Assembly (NCBI GenBank): GCA_006383075.2
Contig: SMNH02000004.1
Span: forward strand, 62,001 to 126,000
Origin: Kordia sp. TARA_039_SRF
Lineage (GTDB): Bacteria > Bacteroidota > Bacteroidia > Flavobacteriales > Flavobacteriaceae
Direction: 5' to 3'
Length of the DNA: 64,000 bases
In this document: positions 7,535-29,272 of the stretch, in pieces
How positions within the stretch are numbered: the first letter of the stretch is position 1
Layout: each line of letters opens with the position of its first letter
Notes under the pieces: model-generated
Told to the model about the DNA's origin: nothing
Databases searched by the model: none
What the model saw: the letters and a program-made list of their open reading frames with translations, nothing else
Position numbers and translations under genes: made by a program

Positions 7535-7561
7535 TTTTTACAAAAACTCAAACTATTAGTT

Positions 7562-8443: not shown

Positions 8444-8462
8444 ATTTTGAATTAGTAAACTG

Positions 8463-8489
8463 ACAGATGCTTCACTGCGAAGCGTCTGT
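8463..8489 (+). terminator. Hairpin after the major capsid gene
   Basis: An 11-bp stem with one G-T pair (8463-8473 with 8479-8489) closes a 5-nt loop. It is followed by TTCCC rather than a long T run, so it is more likely an attenuator or mRNA-end stabiliser than a full terminator. The endolysin gene starts 26 bp further on. Confidence 0.6.
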
Positions 8490-8515
8490 TCCCTTACGGG
8501 GGAAATACTACACAA

Positions 8516-9369: not shown

Positions 9370-9375
9370 GCACTT

Positions 9376-9852: not shown

Positions 9853-9854
9853 TT

Positions 9855-11075: not shown

Positions 11076-11076
11076 A

Positions 11077-11505: not shown

Positions 11506-11507
11506 TT

Positions 11508-11858
11508 ATGGATACAAAAAAGCAGACAAATAAGAAAAATTCCAAAATCATTGGAATAGCAACCGCAACTGAAATAGCAAAATGGAAAGCTGATCATACA
11601 TTCATTTTTGAAAGATATGTAACTGATCCTGATGGCAATCATCACATTGCTTACTTGAAGGCTCTTAATTTTACTGAACTTGAAGCTGCGGAACAGACCT
11701 TAGAAAGCGATCCTGAAGATGCAGCAAATATATTCTTTAATGCTTCATTTCTTGGTGGGAGTGATACCATTAAAAACTACTTGCAATTCAAAGTAGGTCT
11801 TGTAGAGGCAATCACTGAAATTTCTAAACCCGTATCGTTTACTGCAAAAAAGCCTTAA
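11508..11858 (+). CDS. Tail assembly chaperone, short (zero-frame) product
   Basis: The 116-residue protein (start ATG 11508, 2 bp after the tube stop; the upstream in-frame TTG at 11493 would overlap the tube gene) lies between tube and tape measure. That is where lambda G, P2 E and Mu gp41 chaperones are found. It ends ...FTAKKP-stop immediately after the slippery heptamer A-AAA-AAG at 11846-11852. The short form is the G-type product; the longer fusion is described separately. These chaperones coat the tape measure protein during tail assembly and are not in the virion. Confidence 0.8.
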   Translation: MDTKKQTNKKNSKIIGIATATEIAKWKADHTFIFERYVTDPDGNHHIAYLKALNFTELEAAEQTLESDPEDAANIFFNASFLGGSDTIKNYLQFKVGLVEAITEISKPVSFTAKKP

Positions 11859-12058
11859 TCGATGCCTCAATCTCACTAGAGGAAGGTGTCGATGAATTCA
11901 AAAAAGGCAATGCACTTATACGAGGTACATTTAATATTGATCCAGCAACCCTTGACATTCACAAGTGGAGTCAACTAGTTGGAGAAGCACAATACTTAGA
12001 ATACAGAAATTTAAAAAATTACGCAAACCTAATATCTCAACTCTTTAAAAAGAAGTAA
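11846..12058 (+). CDS. Tail chaperone -1 frameshift extension (T domain)
   Basis: From the heptamer A AAA AAG (11846-11852), which is in the correct phase for tandem -1 slippage, the -1 frame is open for 70 codons. It begins KKALIDASISLEEG and ends NLISQLFKKK, and the TAA (12056-12058) overlaps the tape measure ATG as TAATG. There is no good independent start, and the sequence has normal codon use. The product would be a chaperone fusion of about 183 residues, equivalent to lambda gpGT. Only the sequence arrangement is seen; the shift itself has not been shown. Confidence 0.85.
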   Translation, partial: KKALIDASISLEEGVDEFKKGNALIRGTFNIDPATLDIHKWSQLVGEAQYLEYRNLKNYANLISQLFKKK

Positions 12059-14034: not shown

Positions 14035-14663
14035 TGGATTACAATATAGGAAACTTATTTGAAGAGATATTTGGTTTGAAGGTAAACAATGCTTACAAAC
14101 CAAAACTTATTAATCAAAAACAAGAAAAAGTTGATAGCGGTAGCTACACGGGTATCACATACATAGAGGACGAATCTGAAGTGTCGCGTTTGAGTTATTT
14201 AGGTACTCCAATTATCCATCCTATTACTTTTAAAGCTGGTGTATATCAATATTTTGATCCACAAGGAAAAGTAGTTGATGAGCAACTTCAAGATTTTGAA
14301 TTGCCAGCCACAACACTGGTCAATTTTAGAAGAGCAAAAACACAAACCAAGGTCAAGGTCAATGCAGGTGATGGAACAAATAAAGAGAGATCTGGTTTTA
14401 CTGACTGGAATATAGATATAAGAGGTTTATGCCTAAAAGATCCATCGCATCCACAAGCACAAGATCCTTATGAGCAATTAGAGAAAATATTAAGTTTTGA
14501 AAAACTGATGAGTGCTATCAAAGTGGATGGTTTTTTATTTGAAATTAGAGATATCTACAATATTACTATTGATGATATTTCTACACCACAAGTAAAAGGC
14601 GCACCAGGAGTAGTTCCCTTTCAATTAAGATGTTCAAGTGACAAACCTTTTGAACTTTTTTAA
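14031..14663 (+). CDS. Tail/baseplate protein after tape measure (DUF6046-like)
   Basis: The 210-residue protein overlaps the tape measure stop by 4 bp. It occupies the slot of the Mu gp43 (DNA circularisation/N) protein, ahead of the hub gene. The sequence has an N-terminal 25-residue helix, an acidic strand region (YIEDESEVSRLSYLG), and a central FRRAKTQTKVKV...FTDWNIDIRGLC segment, a pattern I associate with Bacteroidetes phage DUF6046 proteins. A role in linking tape measure tip to baseplate hub is inferred from position. Confidence 0.6.
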   Translation: MMDYNIGNLFEEIFGLKVNNAYKPKLINQKQEKVDSGSYTGITYIEDESEVSRLSYLGTPIIHPITFKAGVYQYFDPQGKVVDEQLQDFELPATTLVNFRRAKTQTKVKVNAGDGTNKERSGFTDWNIDIRGLCLKDPSHPQAQDPYEQLEKILSFEKLMSAIKVDGFLFEIRDIYNITIDDISTPQVKGAPGVVPFQLRCSSDKPFELF

Positions 14664-14664
14664 G

Positions 14665-15657
14665 ATGGTATTTATCATAATTTCAAAAATAACGTTCCCT
14701 AAAACCGAGCATAGAAATGCGATTGAAATTCGTAAACCTAATGCAATATCTATCAATAAAGGTTGGAAAATGCTAACAGATACAGCTGAGATTAAGTTGC
14801 CTAGAAATGTCAACTATTTCAACAAATTTGATGTTAACAAAGTATTTCGTGTTGGTGATCCAGTAATTATTGAGTTGGGATATCATCCAACTTTAGTGAG
14901 AGAATTTGAAGGCTATATTACTAGTGTTTCAGCAGACACTCCTATAATTATTAAGTGTGAAGATGAGATGTATAAATTGAAAAAGCTTCCAGTAAACATT
15001 GTTACAAAAACAATGAAACTGGAGAAGCTTTTGCAAAAGATAGCACCAAAATATCAGATTGATGCTTTGGATGTAGAAATAGCACCGCAACGATTTCCAA
15101 GAACTACGGTAGCTAAAGTACTTGAGTTTTTAAAACAAGAATACTCGCTCTATTCTTACATGAAAGGCGGAACCCTGGTTTGTGGAAAAATTTATACCGA
15201 TGATTCCGATATTGATGTGGTTGATATTGATTTGGAAAAAACAGTTGTTGCAAATCAGCTAGTTTATAAAAACAATGAGGATATCAGTATTCAAATCATC
15301 GCGGTATCAACACTAAGAAACGGAGGCAAAATAGAAGTCAAAGTTGGTGATGAAGACGGAGAACAAAGAGAACTTCCATATTATGGAATTACATCTAAAG
15401 AAGCATTAAAGAAAATTGCTTTGGAAGATTTGAAAAAGTTCAAAATTGACGGTTGGAGCGGATCATTGACTACATACGGACTCATTCTAACAAATAATGG
15501 GTTTGTCAGTTTTGATCATGGAGCAAAACTAAGGCTATTATCAAGACAATATCCTGATAGAAATGGAATCAACTATGTAGAGAGTGTTAAAATAGATTTA
15601 AGTGACGCGCCTTCTTTAAGGCGTACAGCACAATTAGGAGATAAAGCAAGTGCTTAA
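14665..15657 (+). CDS. Baseplate hub protein (gpD/gp44-like)
   Basis: From the ATG at 14665, 1 bp after the preceding stop, the protein has 330 residues. The earlier in-frame start at 14638 would overlap that gene and adds no conserved sequence. It contains a beta-domain with FRVGDPVIIELGYHPTLVREFEGYIT and a KLEKLLQKIAPKY segment, as in late-control gpD / Mu gpP hub proteins that connect tube and spike. Order (hub, then spike, then gp46-like) agrees with Mu. Confidence 0.78.
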   Translation: MVFIIISKITFPKTEHRNAIEIRKPNAISINKGWKMLTDTAEIKLPRNVNYFNKFDVNKVFRVGDPVIIELGYHPTLVREFEGYITSVSADTPIIIKCEDEMYKLKKLPVNIVTKTMKLEKLLQKIAPKYQIDALDVEIAPQRFPRTTVAKVLEFLKQEYSLYSYMKGGTLVCGKIYTDDSDIDVVDIDLEKTVVANQLVYKNNEDISIQIIAVSTLRNGGKIEVKVGDEDGEQRELPYYGITSKEALKKIALEDLKKFKIDGWSGSLTTYGLILTNNGFVSFDHGAKLRLLSRQYPDRNGINYVESVKIDLSDAPSLRRTAQLGDKASA

Positions 15658-16124
15658 TGAAACAGATTGCAGAATTTAAACGATTGCTTCATGATAAGAT
15701 GAACTCTAAAGTTCCAAAATCTGTTGTGTGGGGAGTTGTAGAAAAAGTGGATTGGGATAATAAAACAATGGATGTGAAATCCATAGTCGATGAATTACCC
15801 TATGAAGATGTTATTCTTGGGTTGAATTCAATTTATCGAAAACCAAAAATCGGGAGCAAATGCCTTATTGGGATTATCGGTGGCAACCAAGCGGTTACCT
15901 ACCTAATTGAAGCAGAAGAAATTGAAGAGATTAATTACAATGTGGGTAACACCGAATTCAATATTTCAGAAGATGGAATTTTGCTAAAAAGAAATGAAGA
16001 GTTAATGACAGTATTATCAGACATGATTGATGAAATCAACAAAATAATTGTCATCAAAGGAAGAAGTATTGACGTGGCAGCAATGGTAAATATCAAAAAT
16101 CGATTTAAAAACATACTAAGATGA
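15657..16124 (+). CDS. Baseplate spike / gpV-like OB-fold protein
   Basis: The 155-residue protein overlaps the hub stop by 1 bp. Residues 20-75 read as a small OB-fold barrel (VVWGVVEKVDWDNKTMDV, then GSKCLIGIIGGN), as in gpV/Mu gp45 membrane-puncturing spikes. The C-terminal helix-rich part replaces the usual repetitive beta-helix tip, so this may be only the spike base with the tip supplied by another protein. No metal-binding HxH tip is visible. Confidence 0.65.
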   Translation: MKQIAEFKRLLHDKMNSKVPKSVVWGVVEKVDWDNKTMDVKSIVDELPYEDVILGLNSIYRKPKIGSKCLIGIIGGNQAVTYLIEAEEIEEINYNVGNTEFNISEDGILLKRNEELMTVLSDMIDEINKIIVIKGRSIDVAAMVNIKNRFKNILR

Positions 16125-16324
16125 TGACTCAAGAAGAATTGGCGATAGGCTTACAACAAATATATGATCAGGAATCTGATATTGATGTAGATCCGCAAGA
16201 GGCACGTCAAAGAATAGCTGAAGCTCAGGCTCAACTGATAGCGCAATTTGTAATTGGACGTACTACGGTAGTTACTGGTACTGTCGCTGGAACAGCTGTC
16301 ACTGGAACAGGAATAATTCAATGA
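16121..16324 (+). CDS. Small Gly/Thr-rich phage protein
   Basis: The 67-residue protein overlaps both neighbours by 4 bp. Residues 1-45 form an acidic amphipathic helix (QQIYDQESDIDVDPQEARQR). The last 22 residues are a Gly/Thr/Val run (TVVTGTVAGTAVTGTGIIQ), unusual and suited to a beta-strand spike tip or a hydrophobic plug. The placement right after the short spike gene raises the possibility that it supplies the apex. This is inference; no family recognised. Confidence 0.6.
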   Translation: MMTQEELAIGLQQIYDQESDIDVDPQEARQRIAEAQAQLIAQFVIGRTTVVTGTVAGTAVTGTGIIQ

Positions 16325-16596
16325 TTATGAATGATTTTTTATTTGATAACACTGGAGATGTAAAAATTCAAAATGGAGATTTTGTCATTGGTCAAAGTTT
16401 AGATCAAGAAGTTGAAATGATTCTACGAATGAATCCTGGAGAATTAAAAGAAGACCCAATCATGGGTGCAGGATTGATAAAACTAATCAACTCCAAAGGA
16501 AATGAAAAGGATCTTCGAAGAGCCGCAAAATTACATCTGGCTCGCGACGGGAAAAGTTACCAAAAATTAGAAAAACGAATAAAACTTAACACATGA
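16321..16596 (+). CDS. Phage GP46-like baseplate protein
   Basis: This 91-residue protein contains FDNTGDVKIQNGDFVIGQSLDQEVEMIL and then NPGELKEDPIMGAGLIKLI, the signature of short baseplate wedge proteins of the Mu gp46 / gpW-gp25 group that nucleate sheath assembly. It overlaps the small preceding gene and the holin by 4 bp each. The length is normal. Confidence 0.75.
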   Translation: MIMNDFLFDNTGDVKIQNGDFVIGQSLDQEVEMILRMNPGELKEDPIMGAGLIKLINSKGNEKDLRRAAKLHLARDGKSYQKLEKRIKLNT

Positions 16597-17144
16597 AAAC
16601 ATTAAACTTTATACTTGATGGCTTTGGCTTTTTAAACTTCGCAGATTTCAAAGCAAGTACATTTAAAATTCTGCTATCAGAGAAGTTGTCTTATTTAGTA
16701 CTAGTAGGTTCAAGTATTCTCAAATTTTTACATGAGCATCTTGATATCACCAAAAAAGATTTATTAATCACTGCCATTATAGGTTTTGTGATGACACTTT
16801 TTATTATTTCAGAATTTTTAACAGGATTGGCTTTATCGAGAAAACGCGGAGAAACATTCAAGTCAAGATTACTTGGGAGAATGATTTTGAAGCTTGGAGT
16901 ATATCTGATGCTACTTTTATCTACAGGCTTGTTATCTCTTATCAAATTCCCATCGGTTTTAGGTTTTGAAATAGATCCTTTTTTGATCATGTTTTATTTT
17001 GTCTTATTGGCTTTTGTGTTACAGCTTCTAATTTCAAATTTAGAAAATGTTTCAAAACTTGGACTTGGAAAAAATACAAAACTAGTAAAGGCTATTAACA
17101 AAAAGTTTAACGGTTGGTTAGATATTGATGAGCCAGAAAATTAA
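16593..17144 (+). CDS. Phage holin (holin_4_1-like)
   Basis: The 183-residue membrane protein has four likely transmembrane segments (about residues 25-45, 60-82, 100-120 and 128-152) and the LTGLALSRKRGETFKSRLLGRM loop between helices 2 and 3, characteristic of the phage_holin_4/toxin secretion group. It would time lysis and release the signal-less endolysin encoded about 8 kb upstream. Its place among baseplate genes, separate from endolysin and spanin, is odd. It overlaps the following gene. Confidence 0.8.
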   Translation: MKTLNFILDGFGFLNFADFKASTFKILLSEKLSYLVLVGSSILKFLHEHLDITKKDLLITAIIGFVMTLFIISEFLTGLALSRKRGETFKSRLLGRMILKLGVYLMLLLSTGLLSLIKFPSVLGFEIDPFLIMFYFVLLAFVLQLLISNLENVSKLGLGKNTKLVKAINKKFNGWLDIDEPEN

Positions 17145-17520
17145 CATTATATCACAACAAACACTTTTTGATGTTTCCATTCAGTTGACTGGAACAATAG
17201 AAAATGTATTTGATTTTGCTCAAGAGAATAGTTTGTCAATCACAGATTCTTTGGATATAAATACTAAAGTTGTTATGCCAAATAAAAAATTTGAGCAGAA
17301 TTTGACAAAGGAATATTATTCTAAAAACAATCTCAAACCGTCAACTGATATTTCTTTTGATCAGGTTACAGATTTAGAAGGTATAGATTATTGGATTATA
17401 GAAGAGAATTTTATTGTTCAAGGAGGAATTGGACAAACTTCTGTGGGAGAATTTCAAATAGATTCCAATATGGATACACTAGGAGATATGATAGTAGAAC
17501 AATCACTAATAATTAATTAA
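17128..17520 (+). CDS. LysM-like tail protein (gpX-type)
   Basis: The 130-residue protein starts at ATG 17128, overlapping the holin end. The N-terminal part (IISQQTLFDVSIQLTGTIENVFDFAQENSLSITDSLDINTKVVMP) matches the LysM-like pattern of tail protein X, including the conserved NxLxITDxL region. The remainder is an extended acidic segment. Tail X proteins bind glycan or form part of the baseplate. It is joined directly (TAA-ATG) to the next gene. Confidence 0.7.
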   Translation: MSQKINIISQQTLFDVSIQLTGTIENVFDFAQENSLSITDSLDINTKVVMPNKKFEQNLTKEYYSKNNLKPSTDISFDQVTDLEGIDYWIIEENFIVQGGIGQTSVGEFQIDSNMDTLGDMIVEQSLIIN

Positions 17521-17829
17521 ATGGTAAAGAATAGAGAAACGCTTAAAGAATACTTTAGCACAGGAAAAAAACCAACACAAGGACAATTTGCAGACCTCAT
17601 TGATAGTATGCAACATGTTCAAGATGAACAAATAGTAAAATTTGGTCAATTCAAAATATTTAAGCATCCAAATAACAATGAAGCGACTCTTCAACCATCC
17701 GATAGAGTTCAGGGATGGTTTGATAGCGAAACTTTTTTTGAATCGGCAATTTATCTAGGTGGCGATAAAACCGATATTTCAAATTGGAATGTAATAATTG
17801 ACTCTAAGCCATTCGAACAAGCAGAATAA
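17521..17829 (+). CDS. Tail-fibre associated small protein
   Basis: The 102-residue protein begins directly after the preceding TAA. Its first 40 residues carry the ETLKEYFSTGKKPTQGQFADLIDS motif that recurs at the N-terminus of Bacteroidetes phage tail-fibre and adaptor proteins. The rest is a short beta domain. Likely an adaptor between baseplate and fibre. The family is recognised only by this repeating motif. Confidence 0.6.
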   Translation: MVKNRETLKEYFSTGKKPTQGQFADLIDSMQHVQDEQIVKFGQFKIFKHPNNNEATLQPSDRVQGWFDSETFFESAIYLGGDKTDISNWNVIIDSKPFEQAE

Positions 17830-17844
17830 AAACAAACACATATT

Positions 17845-19077
17845 ATGAGAAAAATCAAAATTTTCGCGATATTATTCTTAATCGCATCAACCACAATTGC
17901 ACAACATGCTAGATTTAATAAGAGAGTAAAAATGCTTAATGTTCCTCAGGGAGAACCAACCGATAGTGTATTGGTGTTAAAATCAAACGGATTAGTTCGG
18001 TATGTAAAACAATCTGATTTAAGTACACCTCAGTTAAGTTACTCCAACGGACTTAATCAAAGCAACGGAGTTGTATCACTTGGAGGAACATTAACCGCTG
18101 ATACAGTCATCGACGGTGACTATGAATTAGAACTTGGAGGCAGCCTACTTCTCCAGCGAGAGCTATCGGTTAATTCTTTAATCAATTACAACGGAGTTAA
18201 TGCCACTGGAGATATTCAAAATGAAATTGTTGTAATCGGACCAAATAATACATTATACAAGTCTATTTTAACAATCGATGATTTACAAAGACAGATTACA
18301 CCATCAGTCAATTTAGTAAGTTACACGCCAAGAGATGGGGAATTATTTAGAGATGCAAATGAACAAAACACTTTAAAATTTTATAACGGCGGTATCATGT
18401 ATAAAGTCATGCTTGAATCGTTAGAGGATCTATATGGAGTTGCCCTATCTCAAGCTAATAATAGCTACATTGCATATGAAGATTATGCACCACAACCAAA
18501 CGTTGATTTTACAGCCAAAATTGTATTTAAGCCTCAAGACATATCAGCAGGATCACAACTTGTTCTCTTAAGTCGTTTTGGCGGAACTACAGGAATTTGT
18601 CTGCAAATAAAAAACCCTTTACTATCAGGAGATCCCACTGAATTAGTTTTCCAATTTGGTGATGCTAGTAATATAATTGTAAGAAACATTGATGATTTAA
18701 TTCTTGGAGATGTCTACACATTAGAAATAGGATATAGTGGAAGAGATGGTGCTTTTTCAAAAATGAAAATTAATGGAGTATCTGTGCTAGAAAATGCAGG
18801 TGGTGGAAATAGTACCTTTGATAAAAACTACAATATTGATTACACATCATCAGAATTCACCAGCAGAAATATCAACTCGCTATACTCAAACATTTTTGCA
18901 GGCATCCCTTCCACGCCAGATATTAGAGGATCATTTGATTTATTTGAAATGACCTATGCATTTGGTGTAAATAATCAAATATTTGAAATTGAAGAAAACA
19001 CGGGTATCACAACTGAATCAAATCAAGGTGTTACTGCTGATTTACTAGGTACGGTACAATGGGTTAATAAAAACTAG
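17845..19077 (+). CDS. Phage-encoded LamG-like protein with signal peptide
   Basis: The 410-residue protein has a clear Sec signal peptide (MRKIKIFAILFLIASTTIA, cut before QHARF). This is followed by a beta-rich shaft-like region (residues 25-170) and a concanavalin/LamG-like domain (about 195-390, with NVDFTAKIVFKPQDIS and LEIGYSGRDGAF). Genes on both sides are tail or baseplate genes on the same strand. Cytoplasmically assembled tail proteins do not normally carry signal peptides, so this may be surface-displayed in the lysogen or during lysis, or a moron. Alternatively the segment may be an N-terminal anchor retained on the virion. Confidence 0.7.
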   Translation: MRKIKIFAILFLIASTTIAQHARFNKRVKMLNVPQGEPTDSVLVLKSNGLVRYVKQSDLSTPQLSYSNGLNQSNGVVSLGGTLTADTVIDGDYELELGGSLLLQRELSVNSLINYNGVNATGDIQNEIVVIGPNNTLYKSILTIDDLQRQITPSVNLVSYTPRDGELFRDANEQNTLKFYNGGIMYKVMLESLEDLYGVALSQANNSYIAYEDYAPQPNVDFTAKIVFKPQDISAGSQLVLLSRFGGTTGICLQIKNPLLSGDPTELVFQFGDASNIIVRNIDDLILGDVYTLEIGYSGRDGAFSKMKINGVSVLENAGGGNSTFDKNYNIDYTSSEFTSRNINSLYSNIFAGIPSTPDIRGSFDLFEMTYAFGVNNQIFEIEENTGITTESNQGVTADLLGTVQWVNKN

Positions 19078-19079
19078 AA

Positions 19080-20000
19080 ATGGCACGTTCGATTAATGAA
19101 ATACAAGAATCATTATTGCAAGCCAAAGAGCAAGCATCGGAATTGTCTGCTTTAGAGGTGTTGACAGAATCAGAGTTAAATACTTTAGAGAATGTCAACA
19201 CCACTTCTAAAGTGGCACTTTGGAGACTTTGGCTATATATACAAGCCGTAGGTATATGGATTTTAGAAAAACTCTTAGATATTACAAAAGATGAAATCAT
19301 TAAAGTAAATGATGAAAAGCAGATTCACAATCGAGAATGGTACCGCAATCAAGCACTCAATTTTCAGCTAGGATATGATTTGGACGAACTCACTAGAGCC
19401 TATGATAATTCTAATCTAGATACTGATCAAATAGCGGGATCCAAAATCATAAAGCATGCCTCAATAGTAAAAAGAGTTACACAAGGTCGTGGAAGTGTGA
19501 TTGTAAAGGTTGCTACTGAAGATGGAGATGGAGAAAGAATTCCATTAAATCAAATCCAGATGGAAGCCTTTACAGATTATATGAATGAAATCACTGATGC
19601 AGGTACAATTATCATTCCCCAATCTGGTGTAGCGGATGACATTAAAATGGAAATTGATGTTTATTTCGATCCTGAGATAATGTCAAACACAGGTCAGCTA
19701 TTGGATGGTAGCAGCGAAACTCCTGTTGTAGATAGCATCAACGAATTTCTTCGCTCTATCAACTTCAATGGTATTTATATCAAGACAGAAAACAAACTAG
19801 AACTGGAAAAAGTAAGTGGAGTAAAATACGCAGTTATCAAGTCCGCTAGCTCAAAATATGGCTTGTATAATTATCAAGATGATACTATTCAAAATGCAGG
19901 TCTTATCAATGAATTTAGAAATGCAGAATCAGGATATTTTAAATTAGATATAGAAAACACCATTATTAATTATATAGCACTTGAACAACAATATTTATAA
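19080..20000 (+). CDS. Baseplate J-like wedge protein
   Basis: This 306-residue protein starts MARSINEIQESLL, the usual N-terminus of gpJ/Mu gp47-like wedge proteins in Bacteroidetes phages. It then has VTQGRGSVIVKVATEDGDG (about residues 135-160) and the long C-terminal beta/alpha region with DIKMEIDVYFDP and SINEFLRSINFNGIYI. It overlaps the next gene by 20 bp. Baseplate J proteins form the wedge scaffold that joins sheath and fibres. Confidence 0.75.
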   Translation: MARSINEIQESLLQAKEQASELSALEVLTESELNTLENVNTTSKVALWRLWLYIQAVGIWILEKLLDITKDEIIKVNDEKQIHNREWYRNQALNFQLGYDLDELTRAYDNSNLDTDQIAGSKIIKHASIVKRVTQGRGSVIVKVATEDGDGERIPLNQIQMEAFTDYMNEITDAGTIIIPQSGVADDIKMEIDVYFDPEIMSNTGQLLDGSSETPVVDSINEFLRSINFNGIYIKTENKLELEKVSGVKYAVIKSASSKYGLYNYQDDTIQNAGLINEFRNAESGYFKLDIENTIINYIALEQQYL

Positions 20001-20493
20001 TATAAATTTTGTCAAATTAATCATTTGGCTATTACCTTCATTCTTGAGAAGAGTACGACAAATTTCATTTTTGAAAGTACTTTTTGTACCTATTGAAGAG
20101 CTATATGAAAGTTTAATGCTTTTCAGAGATGATGAATTATATAAAGCACGGCATAATTCTCAGATAATTTCCTTGCGAAAAGTCTTGAATGATTACTTTG
20201 ATCCCACTCTTAGGCGAATTGAGGTTAAAAACGCGGTATTGACATTTCCAACATATTTTTATGAAGAACAGGACAATCAGCCTGTAATTTTCAGCGAGGA
20301 AAGTGACAACGCTCCTGTGTTGTTTTTTGAAGAGGAGGACTTCAATGGCGGTGAAGCGGATTTCTTTGTTTTAATACCTCCAGATATCGTTCCAACATCA
20401 AATACCGCAGCTGAAGGATTTTTTCTTCAGATAAAAGCCAAAATTGACTATTTCAAATTATTCTCAAAAACTTATCAAATCATACAAACATGA
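19981..20493 (+). CDS. Baseplate protein, gp48/gpI-like
   Basis: The 170-residue protein appears to start at TTG 19981, overlapping the J-like gene, because conserved-looking sequence (NFVKLIIWLLPSFLRRVRQISFLKVL) begins near residue 9, well before the first ATG. Aromatic/acidic repeats QDNQPVIFSEESDNAPVLFFEEED lie around residues 97-125. In Mu, gp48 follows the J homologue and precedes the fibre gene, as here. The role in fibre attachment is inferred from order. Confidence 0.65.
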   Translation: MNNNIYNINFVKLIIWLLPSFLRRVRQISFLKVLFVPIEELYESLMLFRDDELYKARHNSQIISLRKVLNDYFDPTLRRIEVKNAVLTFPTYFYEEQDNQPVIFSEESDNAPVLFFEEEDFNGGEADFFVLIPPDIVPTSNTAAEGFFLQIKAKIDYFKLFSKTYQIIQT

Positions 20494-21224
20494 ATCATCT
20501 CAATATTGAAACTAGTGGTTTTCCAGCTACAAACTACACATGGCGTTTTTTGCAAAATGCTTATCAGGAGGTTATAAATGCACTAACAAATGTTGTGGGA
20601 GATAACCTTATCATAAGCGGAGTCAATCAGTATTCAACCAATCAAATAAGTGATGGATTTATTATTTACAACGGAGAATTGCTTTTGTTTCAAGGTGGAA
20701 TCATTTCTTCCAATGTTATTATTGTAGAGGAAGTAGAGTTTAGAAACTACAATCAGGATAATAATAATGACCAACAGGGAGACTCTCATCCAACCTACAT
20801 TACAAGATATGCCAAATGTGGTTCTGGTGAAGGTCAGTTTCCTCTATCTTCGTTAACTAGAATTGACACAGTAAAGCAATTATCAGAATTTGAACAAATC
20901 CAGTCCGATTGGAATCAAAGCGTTTCAACAGAGCCTGATTTCATAAGAAATAAGCCTACCAACTTTTTGCAAATTTTGAAAAAGGGAACGGTGAGTGTTG
21001 GTGATGTTGCTAATGATCAATCTGTGACCGTTGCGATATCTCCTCCAATATCCTCTAATTACATGGTGATTCCCACTATTGTTTCAAACGGAACAGCTGC
21101 TTTTGATAATGATTTGAGAATTATTGTAGAACAGAAAGCATCGACTTTCTTTAAATTATCAATAGCAGAAGCAAGTGGAGCTGTGCAAAATGTTTCAGTA
21201 GATTACATTTTGATACCGCTTTAA
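20490..21224 (+). CDS. Tail fibre protein
   Basis: The 244-residue protein is the last of the structural operon and overlaps the preceding gene by 4 bp. It has LIISGVNQYSTNQISDGFIIYNGELLLFQGG (about residues 42-73), a motif common in Bacteroidetes phage fibre proteins, plus a C-terminal all-beta domain that would form the receptor-binding tip. It is much shorter than Mu gpS. The signal-peptide protein at 17845 may be part of the same fibre system. Confidence 0.65.
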   Translation: MNHLNIETSGFPATNYTWRFLQNAYQEVINALTNVVGDNLIISGVNQYSTNQISDGFIIYNGELLLFQGGIISSNVIIVEEVEFRNYNQDNNNDQQGDSHPTYITRYAKCGSGEGQFPLSSLTRIDTVKQLSEFEQIQSDWNQSVSTEPDFIRNKPTNFLQILKKGTVSVGDVANDQSVTVAISPPISSNYMVIPTIVSNGTAAFDNDLRIIVEQKASTFFKLSIAEASGAVQNVSVDYILIPL

Positions 21225-21245
21225 AAAACCCTCAGATTTTAGCTG

Positions 21246-21339
21246 TGACCAAACAAACTAAAAAAATACATCGATTAAGACATATACTGAGGGCGTAAAC
21301 CTTAATATGTTTAATTCAATGTATTTGTTTGTTTGGTCA
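21246..21339. repeat. Long inverted repeat between fibre gene and methylase
   Basis: Perfect 13-bp arms TGACCAAACAAAC (21246-21258) and GTTTGTTTGGTCA (21327-21339) enclose further pairing (AATACAT 21265-21271 with ATGTATT 21319-21325). Inside is a hairpin at 21281-21309 (TGAGG with CCTTA, loop GCGTAAA). It can end transcription of the tail operon or form a stable RNA. A related core sequence occurs at 40699-40720. Confidence 0.7.
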
Positions 21340-21365
21340 ATACAAATATAGCTAAATAATGAGAT

Positions 21366-22199
21366 ATGAAACAAGATGGTTTAAAAACGCCTATATCATA
21401 CTATGGCGGAAAGCAAAACCTAATTCCTACCATCCTTCCCCTTTTTCCAAAACACAAATTATACGCTGAAGTGTTCGTTGGCGGCGGAGCTATTTTCTGG
21501 GCAAAACCACCTAGCGAAATAGAAATTATTAATGATACCAATCGAGAGCTTATTAATTTTTATGAAGTAGTTCAGAACGAATACGTAGATCTAGAGAAGA
21601 TGATACGAATCAGCTTGCATTCACGTTCATTGCATAATGACGCATCGGTTATCTACAACAATCCTCACATGTTCAAACGAATCGAGCGTGCGTGGGCGGT
21701 TTGGGTTACAGCAGCTCAAAGCTTCAGTTCTATGCTAGATGGATCATGGGGTTATGATAGATCCAAAGGTACAACCTCACATAAGATAACCAGGAAGCGA
21801 GATTCATTTTCAATTGATTATGCCCTTCGAATTCAAAATGTTCAAATTGAGTGTACTGATGCACTTCGCATTATACGCTCGAGAGATTCTAAAGAATCAT
21901 TTTTCTACTGTGACCCGCCGTATTTTAACAGCGATTGCGGACATTATGATGGGTATAGTAAAGATGACTTTGAAAACCTCTTAAAAACGCTCTCAGGCAT
22001 TCAGGGAAAGTTTTTAATGTCGAGTTATCCAAGTGATATTTTAAGGGAGTACACAAAAGAATACGGGTGGAATACTAAAAAGTTAGAACAGACTGTGAGT
22101 GTTGCAAATAATAGCGGAAAACCACAAAAGAAAAAGATTGAAGTGTTGACGGCTAATTATGATTTGAATAACCCAAGAGAGGATCTAAGGCTGTTTTGA
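21366..22199 (+). CDS. DNA adenine methylase, D12 class (Dam-like)
   Basis: The 277-residue methyltransferase has the D12-class order: motif with YYGGKQNLIP (11-21), SAM-binding VFVGGGAIFW (36-45) and catalytic DPPY at 183-186. Dam-family enzymes make N6-methyladenine. There is no partner restriction enzyme, so it is solitary. Placed at the distal end of the phage genome like Mu mom, it probably protects phage DNA from host restriction. The target sequence cannot be read from the gene. Confidence 0.9.
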   Translation: MKQDGLKTPISYYGGKQNLIPTILPLFPKHKLYAEVFVGGGAIFWAKPPSEIEIINDTNRELINFYEVVQNEYVDLEKMIRISLHSRSLHNDASVIYNNPHMFKRIERAWAVWVTAAQSFSSMLDGSWGYDRSKGTTSHKITRKRDSFSIDYALRIQNVQIECTDALRIIRSRDSKESFFYCDPPYFNSDCGHYDGYSKDDFENLLKTLSGIQGKFLMSSYPSDILREYTKEYGWNTKKLEQTVSVANNSGKPQKKKIEVLTANYDLNNPREDLRLF

Positions 22200-23249: not shown

Positions 23250-24122
23250 TCAAGTAGACTTTTTAGTTGCTGAAAAATAGGTGTTAAAATCGTTTAATTT
23301 TGAACGCGATACGGGAACTGTGTCAGTATACTTTTGAAGTGTCAACTGATATCCTTGCGCATTTCCTTTACACTCAATTATTTTGTCCAAATTCACCAAA
23401 TAGGAGCGATGTGTTTTGTAGATATTTGAAAAATTCTGTAGTTGATTCTCCAAATCTTTCAGTGTAATGCGTACCAATGTTTTGACGACTTTATCATGTT
23501 GTTCGAGGAAGATTTCGGTGTAATTACTTTCTACTTTGGCGAATAGAAAATCTTGTATGTGAAATTGAAAATCGCTTCCAGAAATCTGACAAATTCGGGA
23601 TTTTTTTATTATGTTTTCAGGTTTTGAAAAAGAGAGCTTTTCTAAACTTTTACTGTGTTTTTGAATCAGTCGCTGCAAATTTAGCGGTAAAATTATCAGC
23701 AATAACAGCACGCCAACCATAAACGAATTGCGAACTTCTTCATATAAATAACGAAACGACCAATTGTTTGGATTGTCATAAATAATATCGCGCACCAAAA
23801 AACTACCAACACCAATCAATATGAGCGCAATGCTCAAATGCAGCATTTCTTTGCCAATAGTCCAGCGAGAATCGTCTTTGATGGTGGCGTTTACTATCGT
23901 AAAATATAAAAACACAATCGGAATTGGCAACGTGGCATGCAAAACCAAAATCCAAACGTAGCCTATTTTATGCTCTGTTGTGTTAACTTCAAACGGTTCA
24001 AATGCATATGAAAACACAAAAGCTAACAATGAAATTACGCCTAAAATGATAAGTAATTGCCGCTTGTTTCCATAGATATACGGATACGGTTCACGAAGAT
24101 ATGTTACGAGTGAGTTGCCCAA
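23250..24122 (-). CDS. Membrane-bound LytTR transcription regulator
   Basis: The 290-residue protein has four membrane segments (about residues 23-43, 56-77, 92-112, 135-152) followed by a C-terminal LytTR DNA-binding domain (185-283; LFAKVESNYTEIFL and YKTHRSYLVNLDKI are typical). It lacks a receiver domain, so it is a one-component membrane sensor. The start is a TTG at 24122; no ATG lies nearby and a consensus -7 box (TACATTTG, minus strand, 24141-24148) fits. It ends the BlaI/M23 gene group but has its own promoter. Confidence 0.88.
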   Translation of the reverse strand: MGNSLVTYLREPYPYIYGNKRQLLIILGVISLLAFVFSYAFEPFEVNTTEHKIGYVWILVLHATLPIPIVFLYFTIVNATIKDDSRWTIGKEMLHLSIALILIGVGSFLVRDIIYDNPNNWSFRYLYEEVRNSFMVGVLLLLIILPLNLQRLIQKHSKSLEKLSFSKPENIIKKSRICQISGSDFQFHIQDFLFAKVESNYTEIFLEQHDKVVKTLVRITLKDLENQLQNFSNIYKTHRSYLVNLDKIIECKGNAQGYQLTLQKYTDTVPVSRSKLNDFNTYFSATKKST

Positions 24123-24172: not shown

Positions 24173-24874
24173 TTATTTCTTCAAAAAAGCCCGAATCTGC
24201 GAACCGATTTCTTGTATCGTTAACAATACCGCTTCGTTTTTGATGCGATTGGCAGCTTCTGCTTCGTTAACTTCGTTTTCCAGACGTTTTGATTGGAATT
24301 CTTTGGTCACAATCGTAGAAAACGGAATCAAACCTGTACGAACATCTAAAATGATGAGTTGTGTCGTGGCAAACGCTTTGATGTCAGACTTTGCAAATAG
24401 TTTATACCGCGCGTACAAATCGCTCGTAATCGCATATACAACCACAATATCCGATTGCGTACGTACGGCAGCTTCACGAATGCTGGTAAATGTTGGATTA
24501 TTGGAAATTAGCATATCTGGAATCTGTGAAACCGTAGTCACGCGAGTGGATTCTTTGAAATTCTTTCTAAATAAATCCAAATATTCTTGTTGCGATTTTA
24601 AATACTGTTCGTTGTTTCCGTAGTAATAACGTTGGTTTTGTGTGCTTTCTAGTTTTACCAACGAAACGCGTAAATTCTGCGGTAATGTGTATGTTCCGTC
24701 TAAAATTCTTTGAATGTTTTCTTCCGAAATTGTTGCTGATTGGTCATTGAATAACGATTTTGTTATCGGCGGATTAGGTTTGTAGATTCTTTGTGTTGGA
24801 TATCCAGTTCCTGTGGTTTTAATTCCGCACGAAGAAAGCGCTACTAACAAAAGTAAATACACTGTATTTTTCAT
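24173..24874 (-). CDS. Lipoprotein of unknown function
   Basis: The 233-residue protein has a lipoprotein signal peptide with lipobox LSSC at residue 16 (VALSSCGIKTTG). After a Pro-rich linker, the rest is a single alpha/beta domain with NLRVSLVKLE, SDIVVVYAITSDLYARYKLF and LIILDVRTGLIPFSTIV segments. This pattern resembles periplasmic lipoproteins of the CsgG/TolB-related kind. That likeness is loose. It lies 47 bp after the M23-LysM gene on the same strand, which suggests an envelope role. Confidence 0.75.
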   Translation of the reverse strand: MKNTVYLLLLVALSSCGIKTTGTGYPTQRIYKPNPPITKSLFNDQSATISEENIQRILDGTYTLPQNLRVSLVKLESTQNQRYYYGNNEQYLKSQQEYLDLFRKNFKESTRVTTVSQIPDMLISNNPTFTSIREAAVRTQSDIVVVYAITSDLYARYKLFAKSDIKAFATTQLIILDVRTGLIPFSTIVTKEFQSKRLENEVNEAEAANRIKNEAVLLTIQEIGSQIRAFLKK

Positions 24875-24921: not shown

Positions 24922-25857
24922 TTATTGTTTCACAATCAACTTTTGTCCAATTCGCAAGGTTGAATTTTTACGAATCGCATTGTCTTTACACAAAGATGCA
25001 ATGGAAATATTGTATTTTTTGGAAATTCTCGACAACGTATCGCCGCGACGCACCGTATAAACCTTAGTTTCATTGGCTTTACTCGCAATTGCTTCTGCTT
25101 CCGTGGTACACAATTCAATGTTTGATTTACGTTTTGAGTTGTGTCTATATGCCGTTGTCCAGCGGCGTGTCACCCAAATTTCGTTGTTACGCACCTTATT
25201 TTCTTCGTTAGAAAAATCGAATACATATTCTGGATGAATTGGAATTCCTTGAAACAATACTTCTAAATGTAAATGACTTCCGCGAGCATTTCCTGTAGTA
25301 CCGCCTTTTCCAATAATTTGTCCTTTTTGCACCGTATCGTTGACTTTCACCAATTGTTTTGACAAATGGGCGTACACGGTTTCCAAACCATTAAAATGAC
25401 GCACAACCACCGTTTTCCCATGTCCCGAATGGTAATTGACATAGCGAACGACACCATCAAACATGGTCATGACAGCATCGCCTGTGATTAAATCAATATC
25501 GATTCCATTATGCGCTCTGCGATTTCGCCAGCCGTAACGCGACGTAATGACTTTTTTTCTTGGAATAGGCGAGGCATACGTAGAATCTTCAAAAGTAAGC
25601 TGTAGCGGATATTCTTTTCGAATCTTTTTATACGGATTGAAGACTTTCGTGTTCCAGTTTTCAGCAATCCAGTCTTTTGTAACGATTTTTTCGTCGTCTA
25701 ATTGGTTTAAGAGTAATGAAATTACTGGAAACGCGGTATTAATTTCAATGGTTTCACTTGCTACTGTATTAGATTTTACAGCAAGACTATCTTTTGTTTG
25801 ACAGTTCATGCTAGTAAAAATGGCGCATGAACAAACGAGCAGATATACTTTTTTCAT
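24922..25857 (-). CDS. M23 metallopeptidase with LysM domain
   Basis: The 311-residue exported protein has an N-terminal signal peptide, then a LytM/M23 endopeptidase domain (about 100-215) with the zinc motif H116-x3-D120 and H195-L-H197, plus H164 in VYAHLSK. A LysM peptidoglycan-binding motif (YTVRRGDTLSRISKKYNISIASL) is at 266-309. All active-site residues are present, so it is probably an active cell-wall hydrolase. It lies 90 bp after the M56-M23 fusion gene, whose M23 domain is related but separate. Confidence 0.92.
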   Translation of the reverse strand: MKKVYLLVCSCAIFTSMNCQTKDSLAVKSNTVASETIEINTAFPVISLLLNQLDDEKIVTKDWIAENWNTKVFNPYKKIRKEYPLQLTFEDSTYASPIPRKKVITSRYGWRNRRAHNGIDIDLITGDAVMTMFDGVVRYVNYHSGHGKTVVVRHFNGLETVYAHLSKQLVKVNDTVQKGQIIGKGGTTGNARGSHLHLEVLFQGIPIHPEYVFDFSNEENKVRNNEIWVTRRWTTAYRHNSKRKSNIELCTTEAEAIASKANETKVYTVRRGDTLSRISKKYNISIASLCKDNAIRKNSTLRIGQKLIVKQ

Positions 25858-25947
25858 TATATATTCTATTTCTAATCGATGTAAATTTCTAGGGAACTGC
25901 CACTATAACACACGTTTTGCAAAATAATTGTAGTGACGGTAAAAGCT

Positions 25948-27273
25948 TTATTCTGTGATGTATTTCAGTGGATTTAAACGCTTTCCATGCTGACGAACTT
26001 CGTAGTGTAAATGCGGCGCCGTGGACAATCCGGAATTGCCAACATAGCCTATAATTTCGCCTTTTTTCACTGTTTGTCCAGATTTGATATTGAAGCCTTG
26101 CAAATGCGCGTACCAAGTTTCAAATCCGTCAGCATGCGAAATGATGATTAAATTTCCCCAATTACCTTCGTTGTTGGCTTTTGCGATAGTTCCATCGGCT
26201 GTGGCAACAATTGGTGTTCCTAAAGCGGCTTTGATGTCAATTCCGCCATGTGGTAATTTGTTTTTTAATTTCGGATGTTTCCGAACCGCACCAAATTCCG
26301 ACGAAATATGATTGATACTTTTGTTTTGAACAGGAAATAAGGAAGGAATTCCGCTTTCGCTGATAGCAATTGGCATCAATTCGTGTAAAACGCTATTGCT
26401 TTCTGAGTTTTTAAACGCCATAAATGTCAACGCGATTACAGGAAGTAGCAATACATACGCGAGTTTTGAGCGATTTTTTGAAGGTGATTTTGTCATCATG
26501 TCTATTCGTTTTTTGAGTGTTGATTGTGAAAAATAATTATATGCTGGATTGGCGTTTACAGGTTGTAAACTTGCCAAAAGCAGCGTTAAATACGATGATT
26601 TTTTAATGTTTTCTTTTGCTAAAACAGTAGCATCTGCCTGAAATTCATGAATGGATTTGAGCGATTTTCTATAAAAGTAGGCGAGTGGATTGAACCATTG
26701 AAACGCGATAAATAATTCTGCTACCATCATATCTACCGAATGCAACTTTGCGATATGCGCTTTTTCGTGCGAAAGAATACACTTGTCAATCGTTGCAATG
26801 GGCTTTTTTGGCACAAAAATCCAATGGAAATAGGAGAACACTTCAGAAACGTTTGTAGTATATACTTTTGTATCGTGAAGTGTGATTTGTGTGGCTTTTT
26901 TGCGCAAATGAAACAAGCGAAAAATCGTTCGAGCAAATCGTATTAAAAAGCTGCAAAGAAAAGCCAGATATACTATAAATATCCAAAAACCAATGTCTAC
27001 CGTTTGATGACTTTCAGTTTCAAAAATAGTTAATGTAAAGCTTTCAGTGAATTCGGTAACTTCTTTTAATACAGGAATTTCTATTGGTAGTTGAATTGTT
27101 AAAAATAACGTATCGCTCAATGGCAACAACAAGGATAAAGGAAGAATGCTGACGAGAAAAATTCTATTAAATGTATGAAAAGTAAATCGACTAAAAACGA
27201 ATTTAAAAAGCAAATAAAAACAGCTAAATACCAAGCTTACTTGGAACAGATATATTAAAAAGCTATTCATCAT
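25948..27273 (-). CDS. M56 (BlaR1-like) membrane peptidase fused to M23 domain
   Basis: The 441-residue protein starts with the BlaR1/MecR1-type membrane metallopeptidase: helices at about 5-28, 36-60, 95-118 and 270-288, and the zinc motif HEKAH (169-173) with E210 in HEFQAD. In place of a beta-lactam sensor, the extracytoplasmic C-terminus is a full LytM/M23 domain (about 325-435) with H342-x3-D346, H390 and H421-L-H423. It overlaps the BlaI gene by 11 bp. By analogy with BlaR1 the M56 domain would inactivate BlaI; the M23 domain would bind or cut peptidoglycan. The latter coupling is inference. Confidence 0.92.
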   Translation of the reverse strand: MMNSFLIYLFQVSLVFSCFYLLFKFVFSRFTFHTFNRIFLVSILPLSLLLPLSDTLFLTIQLPIEIPVLKEVTEFTESFTLTIFETESHQTVDIGFWIFIVYLAFLCSFLIRFARTIFRLFHLRKKATQITLHDTKVYTTNVSEVFSYFHWIFVPKKPIATIDKCILSHEKAHIAKLHSVDMMVAELFIAFQWFNPLAYFYRKSLKSIHEFQADATVLAKENIKKSSYLTLLLASLQPVNANPAYNYFSQSTLKKRIDMMTKSPSKNRSKLAYVLLLPVIALTFMAFKNSESNSVLHELMPIAISESGIPSLFPVQNKSINHISSEFGAVRKHPKLKNKLPHGGIDIKAALGTPIVATADGTIAKANNEGNWGNLIIISHADGFETWYAHLQGFNIKSGQTVKKGEIIGYVGNSGLSTAPHLHYEVRQHGKRLNPLKYITE

Positions 27274-27646
27274 TTTCTTTCAGGGTTTTGATTTTTTCTT
27301 CTAAAATAGCTTTCATCTGCTCCATTTCGGTCAGATTGAGCGTGTCACTTTCCGCAAAAAAAGAGGCAAACGAACTGGTAGAACCATTAAAAAAGTTCCC
27401 AATGACGTTTTTAAAATGTTGTGAAAAATAGTGTTGTTTTGAAATCGCAGGCGTATATCTGCGAATCTTTCCAAAAGTTTCAAATTGTAAAAACTTTTTA
27501 CGCACCAATACACGGACAACGGTAGAAATTGTAGTGTATGCAGGTTTCGGTTCTGGAAATTGCTCTACAATGTCTTTTAAAAAGGCTTTGTCCAACTTCC
27601 AGACATATTGCATGACTTGCTCTTCGGCTTTTGTTAACTCGTTCAT
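27263..27646 (-). CDS. BlaI/MecI/CopY family repressor
   Basis: The 127-residue winged-helix repressor begins MNELTKAEEQVMQYVW and contains KPAYTTISTVVRVLVRKKFL (about 34-53), typical of BlaI recognition helix and wing. The C-terminal helices dimerise and in the family carry the site cut by the M56 partner. It is the first gene of the group and overlaps the M56-M23 gene by 11 bp. A perfect palindrome upstream (27673-27698) is its likely operator, giving autorepression. Confidence 0.92.
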   Translation of the reverse strand: MNELTKAEEQVMQYVWKLDKAFLKDIVEQFPEPKPAYTTISTVVRVLVRKKFLQFETFGKIRRYTPAISKQHYFSQHFKNVIGNFFNGSTSSFASFFAESDTLNLTEMEQMKAILEEKIKTLKENDE

Positions 27647-27650: not shown

Positions 27651-27658
27651 CAAATATA
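27651..27658 (-). promoter_or_regulatory. Leaderless-type promoter of the blaI gene
   Basis: CAAATATA on the plus strand reads TATATTTG on the coding strand, an exact -7 box. The ATG at 27646 begins 4 nt after it, so transcription probably starts at or next to the start codon. Confidence 0.65.
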
Positions 27659-27672: not shown

Positions 27673-27698
27673 TTTACGACTATAAAAATAGTCGTAAA
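27673..27698. promoter_or_regulatory. BlaI-type operator palindrome
   Basis: Perfect 11-bp arms TTTACGACTAT and ATAGTCGTAAA flank AAAA. A second partial half-site, ATAGTCATTAAA, lies at 27709-27720. The site covers the -33 region of the blaI promoter, the expected place for a repressor site. Confidence 0.75.
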
Positions 27699-27803
27699 AC
27701 TAAATTTATAGTCATTAAATTTCAAAATACCTATAAGTGAGTATGTTACAGCAGTTCAAAAGCACATACTTTAGTGTCATTAATATTATAAAAAATTAGA
27801 ATC

Positions 27804-28046
27804 ATGGCAGAATTAAATTTTGAATCCGTAAATGCACAAATTGAAGCATTAGATTTGGATCAACTTGAAAAATCAGTTTCTCAACGAGCAAATGCAGTAG
27901 GAGTTGCTGCAATTCCTACATTTATATGTGAGGTTTGGAGTAAAATAGGAGGAATCATCAAATTAATTGCAAAATTTCCTTTTTTACCACCAAAATGGCG
28001 AAAAGCACTGGAATTACTCATCAAAACGATGGACAGTCTTTGCTAA
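27804..28046 (+). CDS. Orphan 80-residue amphipathic protein
   Basis: The protein has an acidic N-terminal half (LNFESVNAQIEALDLDQLEKS) and a hydrophobic, basic-flanked C-terminal half (EVWSKIGGIIKLIAKFPFLPPKWRKALELLIK) ending in Cys. It has no classical signal peptide. This two-part layout is seen in small secreted peptides and RiPP-type precursors, but no modification enzyme lies nearby. It is monocistronic, followed by a strong bidirectional terminator. Unknown family; expression likely given the terminator. Confidence 0.6.
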   Translation: MAELNFESVNAQIEALDLDQLEKSVSQRANAVGVAAIPTFICEVWSKIGGIIKLIAKFPFLPPKWRKALELLIKTMDSLC

Positions 28047-28063: not shown

Positions 28064-28098
28064 TATAGTTCGCGTCTAATTTTCAGATGCGAACTATA
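28064..28098. terminator. Bidirectional terminator between convergent genes
   Basis: A 14-bp stem with one G-T pair (TATAGTTCGCGTCT at 28064-28077 with AGATGCGAACTATA at 28085-28098) has a 7-nt loop. It lies between the 80-residue gene and the end of the M50-TPR gene (stop at 28094), whose last codons overlap it. Confidence 0.8.
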
Positions 28099-29272
28099 TC
28101 TTTACAAGCTTTTTTACATCATTGATGTAATCGTCTATAAACTTTGTAGAAGCATCCAGTTCCTTCGCTTTTTCATACAATTCCAACGCTTTCTCGTATT
28201 CTTTTTTATAAAAATGATACAATCCTAAGTTACGAAACGCATAACTATTTTGATCATCTAATTGAAGTGATTGTTGAATATCTTGCAATCCAGCTTCCAA
28301 TTGTCCGAGTTTCAACTTAGAAAACCCACGATTGTTCCAAGCAAAGGCAAATTTTGGATTGAGCGAAATTGCTTTGTTCAAATCAGCAATGGCTTTTTCG
28401 TGCTCGTGTAACAATCCGTAATTATATCCGCGATTATTCAAAGCCAGACTATTCTTAGAATCTTCACGTAAAGCTTCTGTATAAAGGGCATTTCCTTTTT
28501 CATATTCATCAAAGAAACCGTGAATAATTCCCGCATTGATAAAATCGTCCGCAGTAAAAGTATCTTTATAATTTTCAGTAAATGTCTCTTGTAGTTGTTT
28601 GGCTTTTTCTCGATTATCGTTTTGAATATGTGCGTAAATCGCCAAGCGATAAAACATACCTGCATTGTGTTTTGCCTGTGGTATGGCTTCTTCAAAAATA
28701 GCCGCTGCTTTTCCAAATTCCGATTGCTCCATGTAATGAGAACCTTTTTGAAATTTTTGATACGACTTTCGAAACTGAAACAGCATCCACAATTGCATGC
28801 CGTCATTATTGGTAAATGTACCGTTGTGTAGCGCAATGGAATCTCTTTTTGGAACCATATTGTTGATAAAATCCAGCAAACACGAAAACACCAAAGCAAA
28901 AATGACCAACTTTGCAACATCACCAAATTCATTATAATAAAGCACTAAAATGCCAATTGTTGCAACAACTAAAGAGAGTAGAGGACCGCAAATAGTTACC
29001 AAAAAACTCGTTCGGACAGAAATATCTTTTTCATGCATAACACACAAACCGCCTTTCCAATAAAACAAATTGAACTTAAAAAAGCATTCCAAGCGTCCCA
29101 ACTGAAACTGCAACGATTTCTCTGGATTTCCCAATGAGCCCATATATACCGTGACTTTTTCATCTGTCAACAACAACGCAGGAATCGCATGTCCCAACTC
29201 ATGAATTACGGTTGTCAACAAACGAAAGGTTAACAACGCAAGCATGAATATGATAGCGACTTCTATGGGCAT
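28094..29272 (-). CDS. M50-like membrane protease with TPR repeats
   Basis: The 392-residue protein has a membrane N-terminus (helices about 3-25, 80-105 and 115-140) carrying HELGH (residues 24-28) as in M50 site-2-type peptidases. About 200 residues of tetratricopeptide repeats follow (ALNNRGYNYGLLHEHEKAIADLNKAISLNP and two more copies to about residue 385). The second metal ligand of M50 (NxxPxxxLDG) is degenerate here, seen only as NNMVPKRDS, so activity is uncertain. The TPR part likely binds protein partners in the cytoplasm. Confidence 0.75.
   Translation of the reverse strand: MPIEVAIIFMLALLTFRLLTTVIHELGHAIPALLLTDEKVTVYMGSLGNPEKSLQFQLGRLECFFKFNLFYWKGGLCVMHEKDISVRTSFLVTICGPLLSLVVATIGILVLYYNEFGDVAKLVIFALVFSCLLDFINNMVPKRDSIALHNGTFTNNDGMQLWMLFQFRKSYQKFQKGSHYMEQSEFGKAAAIFEEAIPQAKHNAGMFYRLAIYAHIQNDNREKAKQLQETFTENYKDTFTADDFINAGIIHGFFDEYEKGNALYTEALREDSKNSLALNNRGYNYGLLHEHEKAIADLNKAISLNPKFAFAWNNRGFSKLKLGQLEAGLQDIQQSLQLDDQNSYAFRNLGLYHFYKKEYEKALELYEKAKELDASTKFIDDYINDVKKLVKI

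Follow-up and report, generated by a model that had tools for sequence, protein, structure and literature searches.

We analysed a 64,000-nucleotide stretch of the 4.59-Mb genome of the flavobacterium Kordia sp. TARA_039_SRF (assembly GCA_006383075.2, contig SMNH02000004.1, positions 62,001 to 126,000 of the forward strand; hereafter the window), in which a BlaI-type repressor gene adjoins a gene encoding a BlaR1-type M56 protease fused to an M23 endopeptidase domain. The genes lie on the minus strand in the order blaI, M56-M23 fusion, M23-LysM protein, lipoprotein-like open reading frame (ORF) and LytTR gene, at these window coordinates:

27263–27646, minus strand: blaI-type repressor, 127 amino acids; Penicillinase_R (PF03965) in Pfam, E 1.1e-27
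25948–27273, minus strand: M56-M23 fusion, 441 amino acids; overlaps blaI by 11 bp
26497–26784, minus strand: M56 part of the fusion (residues 164–259); Pfam Peptidase_M56, E 7.3e-11
26755–26769, minus strand: HEKAH motif of M56, in the fusion protein
25969–26253, minus strand: complete M23 domain of the fusion (residues 341–435); PF01551 Peptidase_M23, E 4e-35
24922–25857, minus strand: M23-LysM protein, 311 amino acids; Pfam M23 and LysM; a recurrent partner
24173–24874, minus strand: lipoprotein-like ORF, 233 amino acids; lipobox-like start, by eye; zero matches in Pfam, NCBIfam and PHROG
23250–24122, minus strand: LytTR protein; Pfam LytTR; N-terminal membrane part, by eye

A preliminary description of this DNA had claimed a BlaR1-type peptidase that is paired with BlaI, overlaps its gene and keeps every M56 (HEKAH) and M23 (HxxxD, HxH) residue. 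The domain matches above, together with profile and fold matches to BlaR1, confirmed this. The M56 residues H169-E170-xx-H173 and E210-xxx-D214 are present and invariant in a 12-row alignment of relatives (A1), and HExxH and ExxxD are kept in all 27 distinct fusions that we collected. An M56 profile built from 12 relatives (A4; like A1, it omits the truncated locus L040 and the locus L052) matched Staphylococcus aureus BlaR1 (8exp) over BlaR1 residues 7–323 with an E value of 2.5e-8. In the available part of the BlaR1 structure paper (PMC9834060), HExxH, ExxxD, Tyr261, Arg294, the autocleavage P1' residue Phe284 and Asp210 are discussed. When residue pairs were read off the A4–8exp alignment, Tyr261 corresponded to Y228, Arg294 to R256 and Phe284 to F248, all invariant in 27/27 fusions.

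An AlphaFold2 model of the fusion (m7733387b9900; mean predicted local distance difference test score, pLDDT, 77.7; predicted template modelling score, pTM, 0.56) superimposed on BlaR1 8exs with a Z score of 15.9 and a root-mean-square deviation of 3.2 Å over 214 residues. Because the pTM is 0.56, the mutual placing of the M56 and M23 parts in this model is not trustworthy. The model contains long helices at residues 2–25, 33–56, 94–126 and 267–287, which we read as membrane-spanning; on the C-terminal side of the last of them it has an M23 fold, at about residues 308–441. The extracellular loop (residues ~57–93), the counterpart of BlaR1 extracellular loop EL1, is of low confidence. Among the 50 of 308 Foldseek matches that were listed there were M23-type proteins and no BlaR1; BlaR1 came up in the VIA list.

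The M23 part retains H342, D346, H390, H421 and H423, whose roles we take from LytM-type enzymes; they are invariant in A1, and the set (HxxxD, second His, HxH) is intact in 26 of the 27 fusions, with Gln in place of H390 in L104. Its best solved profile matches are 3slu (NMB0315), 6muk, 5j1l and 6ue4 (ShyA). Endopeptidases of the NMB0315, ShyA and MepM type share the fold and the full five-residue set; to our knowledge they have neither an M56 domain nor a paired repressor. Pfam shows no transpeptidase or beta-lactamase match in the fusion protein. Since the penicillin-binding sensor domain is replaced by the PF01551 M23 domain, the protein is not BlaR1 in the strict sense, and the locus should properly be named an M56-BlaI pair carrying an M23 head.

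Searched with phmmer, the repressor matched MecI 1okr (E 6e-08) and BlaI 1sd4 (E 3e-05). In NCBIfam it scored too low to pass the cut-offs of the models named BlaI, MecI and CopY. Phe102 of S. aureus BlaI, the cleavage site, aligns with F97, which is invariant in 14/14 BlaI rows, drawn from ten fusion loci of the main M56 clade, from L052 and from the three other blaI genes of the Kordia genome (L047, L051, L097–L108 and L126 are omitted). Four M56 genes were found in this genome, each adjoining a blaI and differing in their C-terminal parts. The three other pairs (L053, L054 and L055) and a further Bacteroidota pair (L043) likewise have blaI directly upstream and share the M56 core; at its C-terminal end L053 carries TonB_C, L043 CarboxypepD_reg plus TonB_C, L054 a weak Plug match and L055 no named domain.

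A putative two-dyad operator upstream of blaI

The putative regulatory elements between blaI and the next upstream gene are as follows:

27675–27696: putative operator dyad proximal to blaI, TACGACTAT-n4-ATAGTCGTA
27695–27716: putative second operator dyad, imperfect, 20 bp farther from blaI
27651–27658, minus strand: TAnnTTTG element; its end lies 4 nt ahead of the blaI ATG

The palindrome previously noted upstream of blaI is exact, TTACGACTAT-n4-ATAGTCGTAA at 27674–27697, and is the nearer to blaI of a pair of dyads of the form ACTAT-n4-ATAGT whose centres are 20 bp apart; the imperfect second dyad had gone unmentioned. A two-dyad operator (starts 18–25 bp apart, at least 8 of 10 letters) precedes 17 of 25 blaI genes, compared with 0.3% of mononucleotide-shuffled regions, and the agreement among loci is partly due to relatedness. 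For these upstream regions, the blaI starts of L038, L047 and L051 were shifted to the conserved start. Because the gene pair recurs in 26 loci and the dyads exceed the shuffled rate to this extent, pair and operator are no product of chance. An alignment of the operators covers 16 of the 25 loci and is circular for them, because they were chosen for having two dyads. In 16/25 loci the TAnnTTTG element, which we take to be the Bacteroidota -7 box, ends 4 nt ahead of the blaI ATG. Given this spacing, the upstream promoter element would lie under the dyads, and the blaI message would be nearly leaderless.

GACTATn4ATAGTC occurs exactly once in the genome, at this operator, and the dyad with at most one mismatch occurs at nine places (own site included), compared with 12 for a reversed control. 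When the genome was scanned with a two-dyad profile (R1) and 150 of its 6456 first-look candidates scored, this site was the strongest (E 1.9e-10), followed by sites before the blaI genes of L054 (E 6.8e-4) and L053 (E 0.15), two of the three other pairs. A broad regulon is thus unsupported: the exact dyad is single, the one-mismatch count lies below the control and R1 finds one strong site among the scored candidates. One strong two-dyad site among the scored candidates instead indicates a local, self-regulated switch, and the M56-BlaI pairs of the Kordia genome look, from their sequences, like separate self-regulated pairs, although R1 has additional matches in relatives. The proposed distinct envelope-stress circuit is better recast as a local self-regulated operon, the one strong operator among the scored candidates being its own.

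In six relatives, R1 gave matches in five; the cassette operator was recovered in G179, G148, G199 and G152, and not in G102 or G135. Additional matches outside the cassette appeared in G199, G148, G102 and G179, of which that in G199 alone was followed. At about 10197–10237 of L050, a second two-dyad operator stands ahead of a truncated blaI-like start, after which come a DUF4440 gene and one for a PF00144 serine hydrolase; it looks like a duplicated promoter adjoining other genes.

Distribution and origin of the fusion

The fusion locus is real and conserved. Fused M23/M56 proteins had been said to be known in databases, and we found near-full-length examples in at least 10/249 genomes of the family, at least 12/395 of the class (where that of G531 begins only at residue 90 and has a stop) and, with a stricter cut-off, at least 4/395 of a phylum sample. 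The three samples overlap, each includes the genome studied here, and the counts are lower bounds, since at most 4–6 candidates were scored per genome; they cover near-full-length matches and not partial ones like the G023 match (residues 191–438). At least 27 distinct fusions were found in the class; the nearest named relatives are the K. periserrulae fusion, at 83% identity, and that of K. algicida, at 62%. Among 3916 matching plasmid records, one covers 80% of the query.

All 26 loci with upstream sequence (the truncated L040 lies outside this set) have blaI upstream of the fusion, and in 25 the two genes abut. The ORFs overlap by 4–14 bp in 19 of these 25 pairs and stand at -41, -35, -1, -1 and +4 bp in five others; those of L126 overlap too. 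At L108, 329 bp separate the two ORFs and the fusion frame has a stop.

An M23-LysM homologue occupies the same place at ten further loci (L035, L036, L037, L038, L047, L048, L049, L051, L097 and L126), and a polysaccharide deacetylase gene is found at L037, L039, L046, L049 and L050, with PF01522 verified for L039, L046 and L049. In the main M56 clade, 14 of the 16 fusions are followed by the M23-LysM homologue, the deacetylase or both; L040 and L099 have neither. The nearest solved relative of the L046 candidate deacetylase is the peptidoglycan GlcNAc deacetylase 5o6y (E 2.6e-11), though all its NCBIfam scores are far under the cut-offs, so that peptidoglycan is no more than a possible substrate. 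A search of the Kordia genome itself, run with no positive control, found no deacetylase homologue. The M23-LysM, lipoprotein and LytTR genes do follow the fusion as described earlier, but the latter two do not belong to the conserved unit. They stand beside the fusion only here and in K. periserrulae, and in neither K. algicida nor the other mapped loci, and we rejected them as core components. A gene for a TonB-receptor-like outer membrane protein lies between fusion and deacetylase at L046 (8209–10602) and L050 (3818–6211), and an EIP-like stretch occurs in the extracellular loop of many main-clade members.

A tree of the M56 parts of 58 proteins, from which near-copies and M56 pieces shorter than 180 residues had been dropped, as for the M23 tree, rejected the fusions as one clade (approximately unbiased test, p 0.0001; p 0.041 without L052). 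L052, represented by a 470-residue cut, nests among non-fused M56 proteins with support of 100/99; its full product (6226–9093) is a 955-amino-acid M56-M23 protein with ~500 extra C-terminal residues and no Pfam match over the cut-off in them. On the M23 tree, the M23 domain of L104 groups with a stand-alone M23 protein of the same genome (99/80). A single origin of the fusion is thus rejected on the M56 tree, though not on the M23 tree. Because the fusions do not form one M56 clade, the pairing is suggested to have arisen or been swapped repeatedly; the simplest reading of the sequences is that different M56 backbones acquired an M23 module, by joining or by exchange among them, on more than one occasion.

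Proposed sensing of the cell wall and alternative roles of the M23 domain

Sequence evidence supports a BlaR1-type protease with BlaI, two intact metal sites, an upstream BlaI-type operator and recurrent co-location with wall enzymes. We consider it about an even chance (probability roughly 0.5) that the locus is a switch of the BlaI/BlaR1 type whose sensor is a wall hydrolase. By analogy, the best reading is that the M23 domain would sense wall material and trigger cleavage of BlaI. The sites and the gene order being as observed, BlaI, bound to both dyads over the blaI promoter, would repress blaI, the fusion and the M23-LysM gene, presumably co-transcribed. Judging by fold and BlaR1 precedent, the fusion would be an inner-membrane protein, its M56 site facing the cytoplasm and its M23 domain lying outside, where the latter may engage peptidoglycan stems, cross-links or released fragments. 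In BlaR1, according to the available part of PMC9834060, ligand displaces the extracellular loop from the sensor groove and the movement is relayed to the protease. Engagement of M23 could move the membrane part as a beta-lactam does there, and the activated M56 site would then cut BlaI before the conserved Phe 97. The derepressed operon would supply more receptor, more repressor for reset and the M23-LysM hydrolase (elsewhere a deacetylase) to remodel the wall. The sensor of BlaR1 resembles a beta-lactamase; here the sensor would likewise resemble an enzyme under the control of its own switch. The recurrence of the M23–BlaR1-type pairing in related bacteria suggests sensing of the state of the wall and not of an antibiotic.

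More tentatively, and at somewhat less than even odds, we propose a specific form of this switch in which a competent M23 endopeptidase is itself the receptor: by engaging or cutting cross-links it would displace the loop at residues ~57–93 and fire M56 proteolysis of BlaI. Here the M23 domain would have moved onto more than one M56 backbone, and M56-BlaI would therefore be a general platform for exchangeable periplasmic sensors in Bacteroidota.

Several observations weigh against the sensor reading and the history proposed for it. An intact M23 site, judged by its residues, suits an enzyme no less than a sensor, and the linker of ~20 residues is short and may place the reach of M23 to the sacculus in doubt. 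The A4–BlaR1 match carries a large composition bias correction and has a domain i-Evalue of 5.7e-7. In the register of the A4–8exp alignment, BlaR1 Asp210, beside the zinc site, is matched by His in 58/58 M56 proteins (27 fusions and 31 non-fused), an invariant Asp sitting three residues past it. The 31 non-fused proteins are as well conserved in the M56 features, including the Phe 248 counterpart (30/31, with one Leu), so that nothing here is special to M23. The two-dyad operator is missing at 8/25 loci, and beyond the main clade no wall gene is found among the classified neighbours (about one per locus, and none classified for L101 and L102). Long branches are flagged on the M56 tree, whose pattern could stem from repeated loss instead. 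The short M23 tree, with unsettled bootstrap values, is compatible with one origin (p 0.106; 0.279 without L104), so that the case for repeated joining is carried by the M56 side.

The main rival to a sensor is a membrane-tethered endopeptidase. In that case M23 would be an output deployed on demand and M56 would answer some other cue, such as membrane state or its own extracellular loop. Both NMB0315 and ShyA are active enzymes, and such M23 peptidases are the top profile matches of a domain that keeps its five residues in 26/27 fusions. We nevertheless judge this unlikely, because a separate M23-LysM gene is already present in the operon and the M23 domain occupies the position of the BlaR1 sensor domain. 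The company of blaI at 26/26 fusion loci speaks in the same direction, yet blaI also accompanies the three non-fused M56 genes of the Kordia genome.

Still less probable is a metal or drug sensor, with zinc occupancy of M23 or indirect beta-lactam action setting M56 activity. A BlaI-like/BlaR1-like pair proposed to answer to copper, that of PetP in cyanobacteria, is described in the available part of PMC7896320, and the second operator of L050 precedes DUF4440 and PF00144 serine hydrolase genes. Against these stand the absence of any Pfam transpeptidase or beta-lactamase match in the fusion and the identity of its recurrent partners, an M23-LysM homologue and a polysaccharide deacetylase. The M23 domain might also be a LytM-type regulator that binds a partner, for instance an amidase, and not wall peptides. 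The predicted fold is equally close to EnvC (8tzl_E, Z 21.2, 2.0 Å, 137 residues; 4bh5_A, Z 21.1, 1.3 Å, 124 residues) and to ShyA (6ue4_A, Z 20.1, 2.3 Å, 132 residues), and fold alone cannot separate the two. The five residues are present, however, and by sequence 3slu (E 3e-35) is a far better match than EnvC 4bh5 (E 5.4e-12), making this alternative quite improbable. A functionless chance fusion or assembly artefact would suit the few percent of sampled genomes that carry the fusion, but conservation of 27 distinct proteins with their motifs and with blaI speaks so strongly against it that we give it very little weight.

Like the BlaR1-BlaI and MecR1-MecI systems, as covered by the available part of PMC9834060, the locus places a BlaI-type repressor beside an M56 membrane protease with HExxH and ExxxD, counterparts of Tyr261, Arg294 and P1' Phe284, a Phe at the BlaI cleavage position, upstream dyads and, probably, a C-terminal domain across the membrane. 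It differs from BlaR1-BlaI in having a complete M23 and no penicillin-binding domain, His for Asp210 and a Gram-negative host. Here, moreover, blaI precedes the protease gene and no beta-lactamase lies in the operon, whereas in staphylococci blaI follows the protease gene. PetR-PetP similarly sets a BlaI-like regulator under a BlaR1-like protease with a non-beta-lactam cue; it controls copper-linked photosynthesis genes, and the available part of PMC7896320 mentions no M23 domain. Within the open-access literature, surveyed by title and abstract start (subscription papers being outside this scope), no M56-M23 fusion architecture or role was described. Overall, the observation of the preliminary description was confirmed and its interpretation partly supported.

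For only a few systems is it well understood how bacteria monitor the condition of their own wall. BlaR1 reads a drug through a domain akin to enzymes of the wall; in the Kordia protein its place is taken by a hydrolase domain with the active-site residues kept. If M23 signals, one protein would tie gene control to the cutting of the wall or the binding of its fragments, and the Bacteroidota M56-BlaI pairs could be read as a sensor family with exchangeable heads.

Flanking genes

Upstream of blaI lies a divergent gene:

27804–28046, plus strand: divergent ORF, 80 amino acids; its upstream region contains the same operator

The ORF has no Pfam, NCBIfam or PHROG match; homologues occupy the equivalent position in K. 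periserrulae and K. algicida (loci L035 and L036). It is a possible second target of the BlaI-type repressor. An M50-like membrane peptidase with TPR repeats at 28094–29272 lies beside the cassette, likewise in K. periserrulae and K. algicida. On the other side, a plus-strand run of phage-like genes (7562–22199), recognized by eye from sheath-like, tape-measure-like and baseplate-like proteins, ends ~1 kb from the LytTR gene. The run includes an ORF at 21366–22199 that matches phrog_56, a DNA methyltransferase, and is likely a prophage or tail-like element.

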